From Deinococcales bacterium (GTDB taxonomy: Bacteria; Deinococcota; Deinococci; Deinococcales; JAAFIG01), in contig JANYHH010000101.1 in assembly GCA_025359505.1 (NCBI GenBank), positions 62,001 to 126,000 on the forward strand: a stretch of 64,000 bases of DNA, in the 5' to 3' direction. This document shows positions 9,524-15,193 of this stretch, in pieces. The notes under the pieces were generated by a model. It did no database searches. It was not told the DNA's origin and worked only from the letters and a program-made list of their open reading frames with translations. Each line of letters opens with the position of its first letter. Position 1 is the first letter of the stretch. Both the position numbers and the translations under genes were made by a program.

Positions 9524-11291
9524 TCAGCGAGCAGACTCGAGTCTTGCGGGATTGACGGGTGCGCTGCCGCGATCACGCAGCGTCCAGCGGGCGAATCGTG
9601 CCCAGACTCGCGCCAAGCCGTTTGACAGCAGCACGGTGATCCACAGCAGCGCCAGCCCAATCACGGTCGCCACCGCCGCTTCGGTGGGCGTTGTCAGTTC
9701 CCAATTGTCCAGCGTGATGACACTGCCTCCGAAAGCCAGAATCAGCGGTGCAGCGACCAGTGCCAATGAAACGCTGAGCAACACCAGCAGCGACAGGCTG
9801 CTGAGCAGTGCGAACGGAATCTTGACGGTGATGTACAAGCCCGCCCACCACGTCATCGGGTCGCGCATGTAAGTGCTCAGCCGTGCGATCACACCGCCTC
9901 GCAGCGGGCGGGATGTGTACGAAATCGGCACGCCCAGCAGCGAATCGTTGAGCCAGCGCTCGAGCTGAGCGACGTACCCAAAAAACCAGAAGGTCGCCAG
10001 CAAGATCGGCAATCCGATCCAGATGATGCTCAAGGCGATGCCGAGCGCGAATCCGATCAGGCTGAGCATCAGGTACATGATCGATAGCGGCAGCGACAAA
10101 CCGTGATAGATCGCTCGAGTCAACGCGCTAGACGCGGCTGACCGAACCTCAATGCTCGGTTGAGGCACGTATCTCGAGCGGATCGGCTTGGTTGGCTGCT
10201 CGAGCACTGCGTTTCTGGACAGCGTGACCGTGAACTCCGCGCCGCCGTCCGGGTGGTTGCGGACTCCGATCCGACCGCCGTGCATCGTCACAATCGCTTG
10301 CGAAACCGCCAAGCCCAATCCGCTGCCCCCGGACGCTCTCGAGCGGCTGCTGTCGCTGCGGTAGAAGCGCTCGAAGACGCGACCCAGCGCTTCACTCGGA
10401 ATGCCAGCGCCAGTGTCGCGCACCCGCAAATTGACGCTGCTGACACCAGTCTCGAGGCTGAGTCGCACGAAACCGTGATCGGTGTGACGCAAGGCGTTCT
10501 CCAAAAGGTTGGCGATCACCTGATGCAAGCGCTCCGCGTCCACATGCAGCCAGACCGCTTCAGGGGCAATCACCTCGAGCCGCAAGCCTTTAGATGCGGC
10601 TCGAGGGGCAAACACCGCGCCGACCGATCTGAGCAGCGCTGCGATGTCCGCGTCGTGGCGCTCCAATGACAGTTGCCCCGCCTCAGCCAGCGACAATGTG
10701 CGTAGATCCGCGATCAAGCGCGACAGCAGTTCCACCTGCCCGATCAGCAGCCCGTACTCGGCTGGGCTACCCTCGAGCACACCGTCGCGCACCGCCTCGA
10801 GCCGCCCGCGCAGGACGGTCAGCGGCGTGCGTAACTCGTGGGCAATCGCCGCGACGCTGACCTTGCGCTCGGCTTCCAGTGCTTCCAAGGTGGACGCCAT
10901 GCTGTTGAAATCGCGCACCAGCCGTGCGGTTTCTGAACCGTCACGCTCATGCAGCGGCGCTCGAGCGTCCCACTCCCCGAGCGCGACTCGCGTAGCGGCT
11001 TCCGACACGCCTTGCAGCGGCGCGGCGATCCGTCTAGCGAGCAGCACCGCCAGCACCACTGCGACGATCACCGATCCGAAAATCAGCGCCAGCAGAATAT
11101 AGTTTTCCTCGGCGCTGAGGTCTGGACTTAAAAGACTCACCGATCAACTTCTCGATCTGCTGCCCCGCCGCCTGCGGAATCCCTCGAGCGACCAGCAGCA
11201 TCACGAAAATCAGCGTGCCAATCACGGAGACGACCGTGACGCCGATAATGAGCAGAAACGCGACCAGCAAGCGCACGACGAGGCGGTTCAT
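9524..11291 (-). CDS. Sensor histidine kinase with C-terminal Sensor-like membrane domain, split by a +1 frameshift
   Basis: Two overlapping frames together make one kinase. Bases 11291-11133 encode the first membrane helix and a short extracytoplasmic loop (MNRLVVRLLVAF to KLIGES). The remainder reads in the frame that is open from 11140 to 9524: a second helix, HAMP, the phospho-acceptor H-box (AIAHELRTPL, His about 101 of the downstream part), the N-box NLLENALRH, DTGAGIP and GGSGLGLAV. Removing one T from the TTTT run at 11130-11133 would join them as ES-LSPDLSAEEN without a stop. After the ATPase domain come about 200 residues with four or more membrane helices resembling the Sensor domain (PF13796) found at the N-terminus of actinobacterial kinases. 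It lies 22 bases downstream of its response regulator. It may be a pseudogene, an assembly error or a recoded gene. Confidence 0.85.
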
Positions 11292-11313: not shown

Positions 11314-12006
11314 TCAGTTCACCCAGACGCGGTAGCCGACGCCGCGCACGGTCTCGAGCAGATTGGGCAAGCCAGAGCGCTCTAACTTCTTGCGTAAGTT
11401 CGCTAAGTGCGCGTCCACCACGCGCTCCAAGGCCTCAGAGTCGGGCACGGCGACTTCTAGAAGTTCCGTGCGCGTGAACGTGCGGTTGGTGTGACGGCAG
11501 AGCGTCTCTAAGAGCTTGAATTCAGTCAGCGTCAAATCCAAACGCGAACCACCCACTGAGGCGACCATACCGACCGGATCGATCTCCAACTCGCCAACGC
11601 GCACGACAGTGACCACGGGTTGCTGCGCGGTGCGGCGCAACACTGCCCTGACCCGCGCCACGACCTCGAGCGGCGAGAACGGTTTGACGACGTAATCGTC
11701 CGCGCCGAGCCGCAAGCCCAGCAGCTTATCCAAGTCCTCCGCCATCGCCGTGACCATGATGACGGGCGTGGATGCCACAGCGCGAATGCGTTTCAAGACC
11801 TCCAAGCCATCGAGTTTTGGCAGTTGCACGTCCAGCAGCACCAGATCAGGCTTGGCAGCGCGGTGCAACTCCAAGGCCCGCTCACCGTCCAGCGCGACTT
11901 CCGTGCGGTAGCCGTCGCGCTTTAAGTAGCCCTCTAAGACCTGCGCGATGTGCGGTTCGTCCTCGACGATCAGAATGAGTGGAGTTGCATTCGACACGAT
12001 GTTCAT
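11314..12006 (-). CDS. OmpR/PhoB-family response regulator
   Basis: This is a 230-residue two-component regulator. The receiver domain (about residues 10-122) has the acidic pair in VEDEPH, phospho-acceptor Asp59 in LLDVQLP, a Thr in VTAMAE and the conserved Lys108 in VVKPFS. The C-terminal winged helix (about 135-228) ends ETVRGVGYRVWVN, the standard Trans_Reg_C ending. I chose the ATG at 12006 (MNIVSNATPL) because the 41 codons upstream of it in the open frame overlap the TGCAA repeats and do not resemble the family. The kinase gene follows after 22 bases in the same operon. Autoregulation is likely from the phased repeats directly upstream. Confidence 0.93.
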   Translation of the reverse strand: MNIVSNATPLILIVEDEPHIAQVLEGYLKRDGYRTEVALDGERALELHRAAKPDLVLLDVQLPKLDGLEVLKRIRAVASTPVIMVTAMAEDLDKLLGLRLGADDYVVKPFSPLEVVARVRAVLRRTAQQPVVTVVRVGELEIDPVGMVASVGGSRLDLTLTEFKLLETLCRHTNRTFTRTELLEVAVPDSEALERVVDAHLANLRKKLERSGLPNLLETVRGVGYRVWVN

Positions 12007-12010
12007 AGCA

Positions 12011-12107
12011 TGCAAGCTACTCGAGGCAGATGCAAGCTGATCTGAGGTTTTGCAAAGGAATTGCAAAGACGCCGCGTGGATTTGGGTTCTTTGCACGATC
12101 TTTGCAG
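12011..12107. promoter_or_regulatory. Phased TGCAA direct repeats, probable response-regulator binding sites
   Basis: Six TGCA-type copies begin at 12011, 12031, 12051, 12062, 12092 and 12103; the first four read TGCAAG, TGCAAG, TGCAAA and TGCAAA, the last two TGCAC and TGCAG. The spacings are 20, 20, 11, 30 and 11 bases, all near whole helical turns, so all would face one side of the DNA. They lie immediately before the response-regulator start and about 140 bases from the divergent membrane gene. OmpR-type regulators bind such direct repeats; binding here is inferred. Confidence 0.55.
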
Positions 12108-12247
12108 AGCGTTCGCCACACCCCAACACGAGCAGCGCATCATCGGGTCATCCCCAAAGCGGGATTGGAGGCAAGCGGGCATTCAGCCGAATCTCGAGCC
12201 TCAACCGATAGCACCGCGCTCGTCTCCTCGAGCCGAAAGGACAAATC

Positions 12248-12952
12248 ATGACCGACCCATCCATCACTCAACGCCTCCAAAACGCCGCCCCTCGAGATCG
12301 GCAGCTCGGCATCGGCTTACTGGTTCTCGCAGGCTTGGTGGTGCTGGCCAGTTTCAACGGCGCACTCAGCGGCTTTTTCACCCTCGGCACGCTGGCGCTC
12401 GGGTTTCTGGTCGCGCATCGCCGCACTCGGTTGCACGGTCTGGCCGTACCCGGCGGCATCCTCGCGGGCATTGCCATCGGCGTGCTGCTCGAGGGAATCA
12501 CGCCGTTCTCCGGCATCGCCGTTGCTGGGATCGCGTTTGGCTTCTGGCTCGTCAAAATCCTCGAGCCGCAGCGTCACGCGTGGGCTGGCTACGTCGCACT
12601 GGGCTTCGCGGCGATTGCAGGCTTGGTGTTCGTCACCGAGAACGCTTGGGCGGTGGCTTTGGCGCTGATCCTCGCTGGCGTCTACGTGCTTTCGCGCCGC
12701 AACGCGAGTGTGGCTCGAGAATCTGCGACCGAGATCGCCGCAGCGCAACCCACTGCACTCGAGCGTTTACTGGCTTGGCGGGCAGCAGTCGCGCAGCGCG
12801 ATGGGCAACCCGAAGCGGAGATCTTACGCACCGAGCAGCTCGAGCGCTTGGCGACGCTGCGAGCGCAAAATGTGGATGGGCTGTTCGGCGTGCTCGACAC
12901 CGCGCAGATCGAGCGTCACGGCAAGGCACTGCTCACAGTCATGCGAGGTTGA
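12248..12952 (+). CDS. Membrane protein with C-terminal HRDC-like domain
   Basis: This 234-residue protein has five or six hydrophobic segments in residues about 20-155 and a soluble C-terminal domain in residues about 170-234. The tail reads ALERLLAWRAAVAQRDG, then ILRTEQLERLATLRAQ, then LFGVLDTAQIERHGKALL, which matches the helix pattern of HRDC domains (nucleic-acid-binding modules usually at the end of RecQ helicases or RNase D). Such a fusion to a membrane region is unusual. The gene is divergent from the two-component operon and shares its repeat-rich control region, so it may be a target or partner. An RBS AAAGGAC lies before the ATG. Confidence 0.75.
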   Translation: MTDPSITQRLQNAAPRDRQLGIGLLVLAGLVVLASFNGALSGFFTLGTLALGFLVAHRRTRLHGLAVPGGILAGIAIGVLLEGITPFSGIAVAGIAFGFWLVKILEPQRHAWAGYVALGFAAIAGLVFVTENAWAVALALILAGVYVLSRRNASVARESATEIAAAQPTALERLLAWRAAVAQRDGQPEAEILRTEQLERLATLRAQNVDGLFGVLDTAQIERHGKALLTVMRG

Positions 12953-13082: not shown

Positions 13083-13200
13083 CTTTGCTCCCTCTCCCAC
13101 GCGTGGGAGAGGGTTGGGGAGAGGGGATGAGCGCAGCGAATGCTTTTGACGTTCAAGGTCAACAGCAACTCGCCCCTCACCCGCAGGGGGAGGCGAGAAA
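13083..13200. repeat. CCCTCTCCC-type interspersed repeat, copy B1
   Basis: CTTTGCTCCCTCTCCC opens a perfect hairpin (CCCTCTCCCACGCGTGGGAGAGGG, read in two parts), followed by GATGAGCGCAGCGAATGC and a second pyrimidine/purine-rich arm ending GGGGGAGGCGAGAAA. A close relative is at 49862-50021. It lies in the 434-base gap between the HRDC membrane gene and the DUF58 gene; I see no gene in the rest of that gap. Confidence 0.75.
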
Positions 13201-13386: not shown

Positions 13387-14103
13387 TCAGCCGCGCTCGA
13401 GAATTCGGGCGCGGCGCAGGCGTGCGAACGCATCGGCGAAGTCAGCGCCGCGCAGTTGCGCGTGACGCAAGCCCAGTGAGCGCGTCAAGCCCGCCAGCCC
13501 CTCGAGATGCTGGGCAAGCCGCGCCAAGTACGCCAGTCGCGCCGCGTCGTCCACTTCCCGCACGTTGGCACTCTCCGCGTCGGTGATGCGCCACGTGCCA
13601 AGCGGCGGCTCGAGGTCATCGGCGGAGAGAAGCTGAACCAAGCTGACATCGAAACCACGTGATTTCAGCGCCAATAACCCAGCGCGAATCTGGGGCAGCG
13701 GCTCTAAAAGATCGCTGAGCAGCACGACCAGCCCCGCTTTCTCCAATGCGAGGCGAGATAAACCGCTTCGCAAATCCGTCACGCGCCGCTCGAGCAGCAG
13801 ATCCGAACGGGTGAAGTTTTTTAAGAAGCGAGCGATTTGCGTAGCATCCAATTGCTTGGCAGTCATGCTGGCGCTTTCGTCCAGCACCAGATACACGCGG
13901 CTGCTTCGCTGGGCTTGAAACTTGCGCGTGAACAACTTGCCGCTGCGGGCGTAGACGTTCCAATCGACGAATCTCGGATCGTCGCCCGCTTCGTAAGGGC
14001 GGTACTCCATGAATTCGGAGCCGCCGCCAGACAGCCTCGAGACGCGCTCACCCGCGCCAGTGGACAGGGCGCGGCTCGAGAGTCTGAAGGTGCGGAGCGT
14101 CAT
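13387..14103 (-). CDS. DUF58 domain-containing protein
   Basis: This 238-residue protein carries the DUF58 signature in EYRPYEAGDDPRFVDWNVYARSG, read in two parts around residues 33-55, followed by a von Willebrand A-like fold with LVLDESASM, the usual metal-site DxSxS pattern. It has no membrane anchor, unlike the longer members of the family. DUF58 proteins are almost always encoded beside MoxR ATPases, as here, where the MoxR gene lies upstream on the same strand. The pair probably acts as an AAA chaperone with a VWA-type adaptor for assembling or activating another complex. The target is not visible in the neighbourhood. Confidence 0.9.
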   Translation of the reverse strand: MTLRTFRLSSRALSTGAGERVSRLSGGGSEFMEYRPYEAGDDPRFVDWNVYARSGKLFTRKFQAQRSSRVYLVLDESASMTAKQLDATQIARFLKNFTRSDLLLERRVTDLRSGLSRLALEKAGLVVLLSDLLEPLPQIRAGLLALKSRGFDVSLVQLLSADDLEPPLGTWRITDAESANVREVDDAARLAYLARLAQHLEGLAGLTRSLGLRHAQLRGADFADAFARLRRARILERG

Positions 14104-14180
14104 CGCGGGGTCAATTCACAAAGCGCGACCTCGAGCACCCGAAACCGCGTGCAGACGTGCTCGGCATCACTCGAGCACCA

Positions 14181-14215
14181 TGCTCGGGGAGTACATGCTC
14201 GGGGAGTACATGCTC
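14181..14215. repeat. 15-base tandem repeat with CTCGGG/CTCGAG core
   Basis: The unit TGCTCGGGGAGTACA occurs twice in tandem (14181-14195, 14196-14210) and a third partial unit, TGCTCGAG, follows. It lies in the 160-base spacer between the MoxR and DUF58 genes, so it is probably transcribed with them. The first two units differ from CTCGAG by one base. Confidence 0.8.
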
Positions 14216-14263
14216 GAGCAGCACCGTCCTTCCCCTTCGCCTTTCGCCCTTCGCCTTCTTTCA

Positions 14264-15193
14264 TCACTTGACCTTTTCCAGCACGCCCTTCAATACATCC
14301 GCGACTTGCACACCCTCGAGTTCAGCTTCAAAGCCCATGATGACGCGGTGCGTGGCTGATAGCGGCAGCGCCCGCAGCACGTCCTCGCGGCTGACGAAAG
14401 CCCGAGCGCCCAGCAATGCGAAGGCTCGAGCCAAATTGAGCAGCGCCTGCGCTCCGCGTGGCGATAAGCCGTAACGCACGCGCTTGTCAGAATGCGTGGC
14501 TTCGACCAGTGCGACGATGGTCTCGAGCATCGGTTGCGAGACGGGGACGCTTGCCGTGATGCGGCGCAACTCGAGCAGTTCCCCCGCCTCGAGCGCTGGA
14601 TTAGCAGACTTGACCGCGCCCGCCTCGAGAATGCGTTTCAGGGTCTCAGGCGTTGGGCGCTCGACGGTGATTTTTGATAGGAACCTGTCCAGTTGCGCCT
14701 CGGGCAGTGGGTACGTGCCCTCCATCTCCAACGGGTTCTGCGTAGCGATCACGATGAAGGGCTGCGGCAATTCGGCGCGTTCACCGGCTGTCGTGACCGC
14801 GCCCTCCTGCATCGCCTCCAGAAGGGCGCTCTGGGTTTTCGGGGTGGCACGGTTGATCTCGTCGGCCAGTAAGAGCTGCGTGAAGACCGGCCCGCGCTGG
14901 TGACGGTATTGTAATTGGCCGCCCGTGGTGTCGATCACCTGCGTTCCCGTGACATCGGCCGGCATCAAATCCGGCGTGAACTGAATGCGCTTGTACTCCA
15001 GACCAGCGGCGCGAGCGAAGTTCTGCGCCAGCAGCGTCTTACCCAAGCCCGGCACGCCCTCTAAAAGCGCGTGACCGCCCGCGAAAGCCGTGGCGATCAG
15101 GTTCTCAATCACCGTCTCCTGCCCGATCAGCACGGCTTCTAAGGAGCGCTTCAAGCGCCGCGCCGCGTCGTTGGCTCGCTCCACGCCGTCCAT
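14264..15193 (-). CDS. MoxR family AAA ATPase
   Basis: This 309-residue AAA+ ATPase has Walker A in GVPGLGKTLLA (about residues 40-50), Walker B in LLLADEINRA, the MoxR-typical TPKTQSALLEAMQE that follows it, and sensor 1 in VIATQNPLEMEGTYPLPEAQLDRF, read in two parts. The lid domain contains the YGLSPRGAQALL sensor 2 region. MoxR proteins are cytosolic chaperones that work with VWA-domain proteins; the DUF58 gene directly downstream is the expected partner. The start ATG at 15193 (MDGVERAND) gives the usual family length. Confidence 0.95.
   Translation of the reverse strand: MDGVERANDAARRLKRSLEAVLIGQETVIENLIATAFAGGHALLEGVPGLGKTLLAQNFARAAGLEYKRIQFTPDLMPADVTGTQVIDTTGGQLQYRHQRGPVFTQLLLADEINRATPKTQSALLEAMQEGAVTTAGERAELPQPFIVIATQNPLEMEGTYPLPEAQLDRFLSKITVERPTPETLKRILEAGAVKSANPALEAGELLELRRITASVPVSQPMLETIVALVEATHSDKRVRYGLSPRGAQALLNLARAFALLGARAFVSREDVLRALPLSATHRVIMGFEAELEGVQVADVLKGVLEKVK

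Follow-up and report, generated by a model that had tools for sequence, protein, structure and literature searches.

To our knowledge, HRDC domains have almost always been treated as accessories of RecQ helicases or of RNase D. The domain described here resembles those of RecQ and RNase D (PF00570) in sequence profile and in helical fold, but it occurs without a helicase or nuclease and is fused to membrane helices instead, in a protein (TM-HRDC) encoded in the 64,000-nucleotide stretch of Deinococcales DNA that was analyzed (the window). The DR2444-type protein of Deinococcus, a PLP enzyme combined with HRDC, is likewise found outside helicases and nucleases (PMC1978522, PMC10614293). It resembles TM-HRDC in this respect, also within Deinococcota, and the window genome carries an apparent representative (C106), but it is a soluble PLP enzyme, whereas TM-HRDC is a membrane protein. 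A PLP-enzyme-like protein with HRDC, which resembles DR2444 by description, was observed at L111:1339-2865 (reverse strand), adjoined by a gene resembling polysaccharide pyruvyl transferase. The small HRDC proteins of diversity-generating retroelements (DGRs), as on a Prosthecochloris plasmid (L143) beside avd and reverse transcriptase, are helicase-free as is TM-HRDC, but they are ~160 aa long and belong to a retroelement cassette, whereas the HRDC of TM-HRDC sits on a membrane protein; no retroelement was seen among the neighbors of TM-HRDC.

No description of a membrane HRDC family was found in the open-access papers searched, and databases may carry members as 'HRDC domain-containing protein'. 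The architecture is genuine and under-described. As a phylum-wide family with canonical and apparently DNA-contact-free forms, and with the tail present or absent, it constitutes a natural experiment on a helicase-independent role of HRDC.

The TM-HRDC gene (12248..12952, forward strand) is a 234-aa open reading frame with an ATG start, preceded by a Shine-Dalgarno-like AAAGGA read from the sequence (12236..12241, forward strand). On the same strand, it encodes a membrane part (residues 19-150; 12302..12697), a linker that is unconserved in the clade alignment (residues 151-168; 12698..12751) and a divergent HRDC domain (residues 169-230; 12752..12937). Where five or six membrane helices had been proposed, about six are indicated by hydropathy analysis, in which the hydrophobic peaks come in pairs, and by the AlphaFold2 model, which has helices at residues 15-35, 39-60, 66-84, 90-105, 111-130 and 133-166, the first with low confidence. 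The model was computed from three sequences, with a mean pLDDT of 67.9 and values of ~72-85 in the tail. Because the membrane part has Arg/Lys-rich loops (HRRTR, KILEPQR and SRR), the C-terminus is predicted by the positive-inside rule to be cytoplasmic, and the six-helix membrane part would then carry a cytoplasmic HRDC module via a flexible linker.

Pfam, profile and structure searches agreed that the protein ends in an HRDC-like domain, as the earlier note had claimed. Residues 169-230 scored 31 bits against PF00570 (E 2.4e-7) and 33.9 bits in a whole-genome scan, above the Pfam gathering score of 23.8 bits, and the NCBIfam RNase D model matched the same residues weakly. The comparison with known HRDC structures and profiles that had been suggested in the earlier note gave HRDC on both counts: a profile of eight homologs matched the HRDC chains of DrRecQ, EcRecQ, RNase D and BLM in the PDB (E 4e-8 to 2e-3), and the first 17 Foldseek matches of the AlphaFold2 model to the PDB were all HRDC domains (17/17), among them 2rhf and 1wud (each with a TM-score of 0.77 by target length, rmsd 1.4). 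The Foldseek E-values were weak (0.46-4.2) because the HRDC tail makes up about a quarter of the model, and the fold claim rests on the uniformity of these matches together with the sequence evidence. A SHOCT-like or plain coiled tail, which the earlier note had named as the outcome that would overturn its claim, was rejected, as no SHOCT match was obtained with Pfam and the predicted fold was that of HRDC.

The explanation that we favor, tentatively and with somewhat less than even confidence, is a membrane HRDC family in which the tail of the window clade has become a docking module, together with a repeat array that would let the neighboring regulator control the genes on both sides. The function is inferred: anchored in the membrane and serving the envelope in some way, the protein would recruit or sense a cytoplasmic partner through its HRDC domain. 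The envelope link rests on the neighbors of other TM-HRDC copies. In a related genome (G001), TM-HRDC (G001:C15) is divergent from a gene for a secreted 3D-like protein, named by eye as Pfam gave no match; the paralog in the window genome (G000:C97) is likewise divergent from such a gene, and the copies of family f4 have this neighbor too. A MacB/FtsX permease also adjoins, divergently, the paralog G000:C97 and the f4 copies. The neighbors in family f3 (2-oxoacid dehydrogenase subunits, an MgtC/DUF4010 protein and citrate synthase) are uninformative in this regard.

The TM-HRDC gene is divergent from a two-component system on the reverse strand, as had been noted earlier, consisting of an OmpR/PhoB-type response regulator (11314..12006, whose start codon, ATG at 12006, was set from the G001 ortholog) and a HAMP-HisKA-HATPase kinase (9524..11291), in which domain searches placed a C-terminal Sensor domain (PF13796) after the HATPase. 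The notion of a shared control region gained support from a repeat scan of the intergenic region, which identified, within 57 bp (12050-12106), two direct repeats that match exactly (8/8) and have a period of 11 bp, namely TTGCAAAG-GAA-TTGCAAAG (12050..12068, forward strand) and, inverted relative to it, TCTTTGCA-CGA-TCTTTGCA (12088..12106, reverse strand). A period of 11 bp between direct repeats is what regulators of the PhoB/OmpR type bind, as in the pho box.

Exact 8/8 period-11 repeats numbered three in the 64-kb window, and in 2000 rounds of dinucleotide shuffling the region never yielded an equally inverted pair (0 of 2000), a figure that is optimistic because the pattern was picked after being seen. 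In exact form the pattern occurs once in the 4.23-Mb genome, at 12050..12068, and a regulon search brought up no other such copy; at ≤2 mismatches there were 7 matches, two of them the array itself, against 3 for the control. Scattered matches with one or two mismatches occurred in sister genomes at roughly two- to sevenfold the control level. Simple scans of the control region for sigma-70 promoters and terminators found nothing. Since the array lies ~44 bp from the start of the regulator gene and ~141 bp from that of TM-HRDC, autoregulation of the regulator through this operator-like array would be the simplest reading. The array also lends support to a putative co-regulation of TM-HRDC with the two-component system: the inverted repeats would most likely be an operator through which the window regulator, if it binds there, controls its own operon as well as the membrane gene.

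Linkage between TM-HRDC and the two-component system proved not to be conserved. The neighborhood survey for kinases with the C-terminal Sensor domain, which the earlier note had proposed, went against it: in G001, the orthologous system (78% identity for the regulator and 48% for the kinase, which is intact with 605 aa) has as its divergent neighbor a GNAT gene, assigned from the sequence itself without a family search, and no repeat array lies upstream of the regulator; TM-HRDC is located elsewhere in that genome. Most TM-HRDC relatives have no two-component neighbor. In the sister genome G003, a truncated copy consisting of the membrane part only (G003:C65; L035:6700-7160) is divergent from a non-orthologous OmpR-type system, and a weaker, 7/8 repeat of period 11 lies between the two (shuffle fraction 0.043). 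Two-component neighbors are therefore recurrent within the clade yet not conserved, since G003:C65 has a different OmpR-type system and the G001 ortholog adjoins GNAT. A conserved two-component linkage was rejected on the basis of the G001 ortholog and the family neighborhoods. In the window genome, one of the two paralogs would have ended up next to an OmpR-type system, in divergent orientation. The suggestion of a functional set of kinase, regulator and membrane protein retains the local shared array in its favor; against it stand the unconserved linkage and the window kinase itself, whose N-terminus and first helix lie in another frame. A +1 shift at about 11140 would connect them to the rest, and this apparent frameshift may reflect a decaying system or an assembly error. 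The same kinase architecture, with a C-terminal Sensor, is present in a single intact frame at L107 (7536-9353); G002 and G003 have a kinase of another type, with the Sensor-like part at its N-terminus (L102, L104).

These neighborhoods also bear on the possibility, which we regard as unlikely, that TM-HRDC modulates the adjacent kinase in the manner of LiaF, sensing the envelope and contacting kinase or regulator with its cytoplasmic tail. The divergent position with an operator in common and the truncated copy beside another OmpR-type system fit such a role, as do matches to LiaF-TM (PF22570) in two relatives (L037 and L038), but these matches are sub-threshold (17.6-18.6 bits versus a cut-off of 27), the Pfam search gave none for the window protein, and neither the G001 kinase ortholog nor most family members have the expected partner beside them. 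Furthermore, no LiaF C-terminal domain was found in TM-HRDC, which has HRDC instead.

The earlier note had described the domain as nucleic-acid-binding; the HRDC fold stands, but binding by the window tail is doubtful because the contact features have been lost and the net charge is zero. In E. coli RecQ, the substitution Y555A abolishes binding of ssDNA by HRDC, and DNA affinities of HRDC domains range widely (PMC4464074). Residue 555 of K-12 RecQ was checked to be the Tyr of VPPYVVF, and the alignment pairs it with A190 of the window protein. The Gly-rich turn close to the C-terminal helix, which reads IKGIGP in the canonical form, is two residues shorter in the window clade (f1; V--LD), so that both the Tyr and the GIG/GVG turn are missing from f1 tails. 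The net charge is 0 for the window tail and -3 to -1 for other f1 tails. By comparison, the canonical GIG[PK]VKLERYG turn was present in 8/8 f3 tails inspected and the Tyr in six of these eight, and f3 orthologs carry a net charge of -2 to +3 over their last 70 residues.

The tail is nonetheless the best-conserved part of the protein in the window clade and appears to be constrained, judging from identities of 64% and 62%, compared with 55% and 42% for the membrane part and 35% and 20% for the linker, and from a dN of 0.31 with synonymous sites saturated, a saturation that limits the test of constraint at the nucleotide level. For a domain that appears constrained yet lacks the known contact features, protein docking is the most plausible function, and for the window HRDC it is a likelier role than DNA binding; the domain would probably have been converted from contacting nucleic acid to docking protein, although it may still contact DNA weakly without Y555 or the GIG turn.

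It is quite unlikely, in our estimation, that the tail has kept its affinity for nucleic acid and anchors DNA or RNA at the membrane under two-component control: RecQ HRDC does bind ssDNA, and the f3 orthologs retain the turn and, for the most part, the Tyr, with the charges given above, but the window clade has lost both features and its tails are neutral or negative, and some syntenic orthologs have no tail at all. Improbable as well is a reading in which a two-component-regulated membrane protein holds nucleoid DNA or RNA at the cytoplasmic membrane through HRDC, with the f3 relatives clearly binding DNA and the window clade retuned to another ligand.

The TM-HRDC family occurs across Deinococcota. 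Homologs from the same genome family are 36-55% identical overall, and the closest named relatives in a contig search were two Deinococcales MAGs. The family profile had matches in 74/111 Deinococcota genomes, a count that includes some RecQ HRDCs and genes for the membrane part only, the full fusion being rarer. Full-length fusions were found in f1, the family of the window protein, and in f3, which is probably Trueperaceae-like and in which the HRDC score reaches 83 bits; in f4 the tail is degenerate. In the phylogenetic tree, the window copy groups with G002:C4, G003:C410 and the truncated G003:C65 (support 98/97), apart from the paralog G000:C97. In the window genome, HRDC occurs in the two TM-HRDC genes, in three copies in a RecQ and once in the PLP-enzyme-like protein.

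The HRDC tail is optional, since it is missing from syntenic orthologs at the same f3 locus (G017, G020 and G102), in which the membrane part is present. These losses, the degenerate f4 tail and the unconserved linkage would suit a functionless remnant on a membrane part that does the work beside unrelated neighbors, but this is improbable given that the tail is the best-conserved part in the window clade. In G009, the membrane part and HRDC occur in different frames at the f3 locus. At L042:9172-10022 (reverse strand), in a single-contig genome, the membrane part is out of frame with an HRDC that is intact and canonical, and the split could be a frameshift, a sequencing error or a programmed shift.

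A plasmid search gave matches to the HRDC part only, mostly RecQ where annotated. Apparently soluble small HRDC proteins of 137-156 aa with a common N-terminal domain were observed at L093:8886-9305, L094:8624-9037 and L095:8715-9185, and no retroelement genes were recognized among their examined neighbors.

Downstream of TM-HRDC, an intergenic GC-rich inverted repeat at 13090-13200 (CCCTCTCCC...GGGAGAGGG) resembles a dispersed repeat element. Genes of the MoxR/DUF58 type often accompany TgpA, and MoxR and a short DUF58 gene lie directly downstream of TM-HRDC (13387-15193, reverse strand). The N-terminal domain of TgpA (TgpA_N, PF11992) weakly resembles the membrane part of TM-HRDC relatives, with sub-threshold scores of up to 28.4 bits (cut-off 30), but TM-HRDC carries HRDC where no transglutaminase domain was found.
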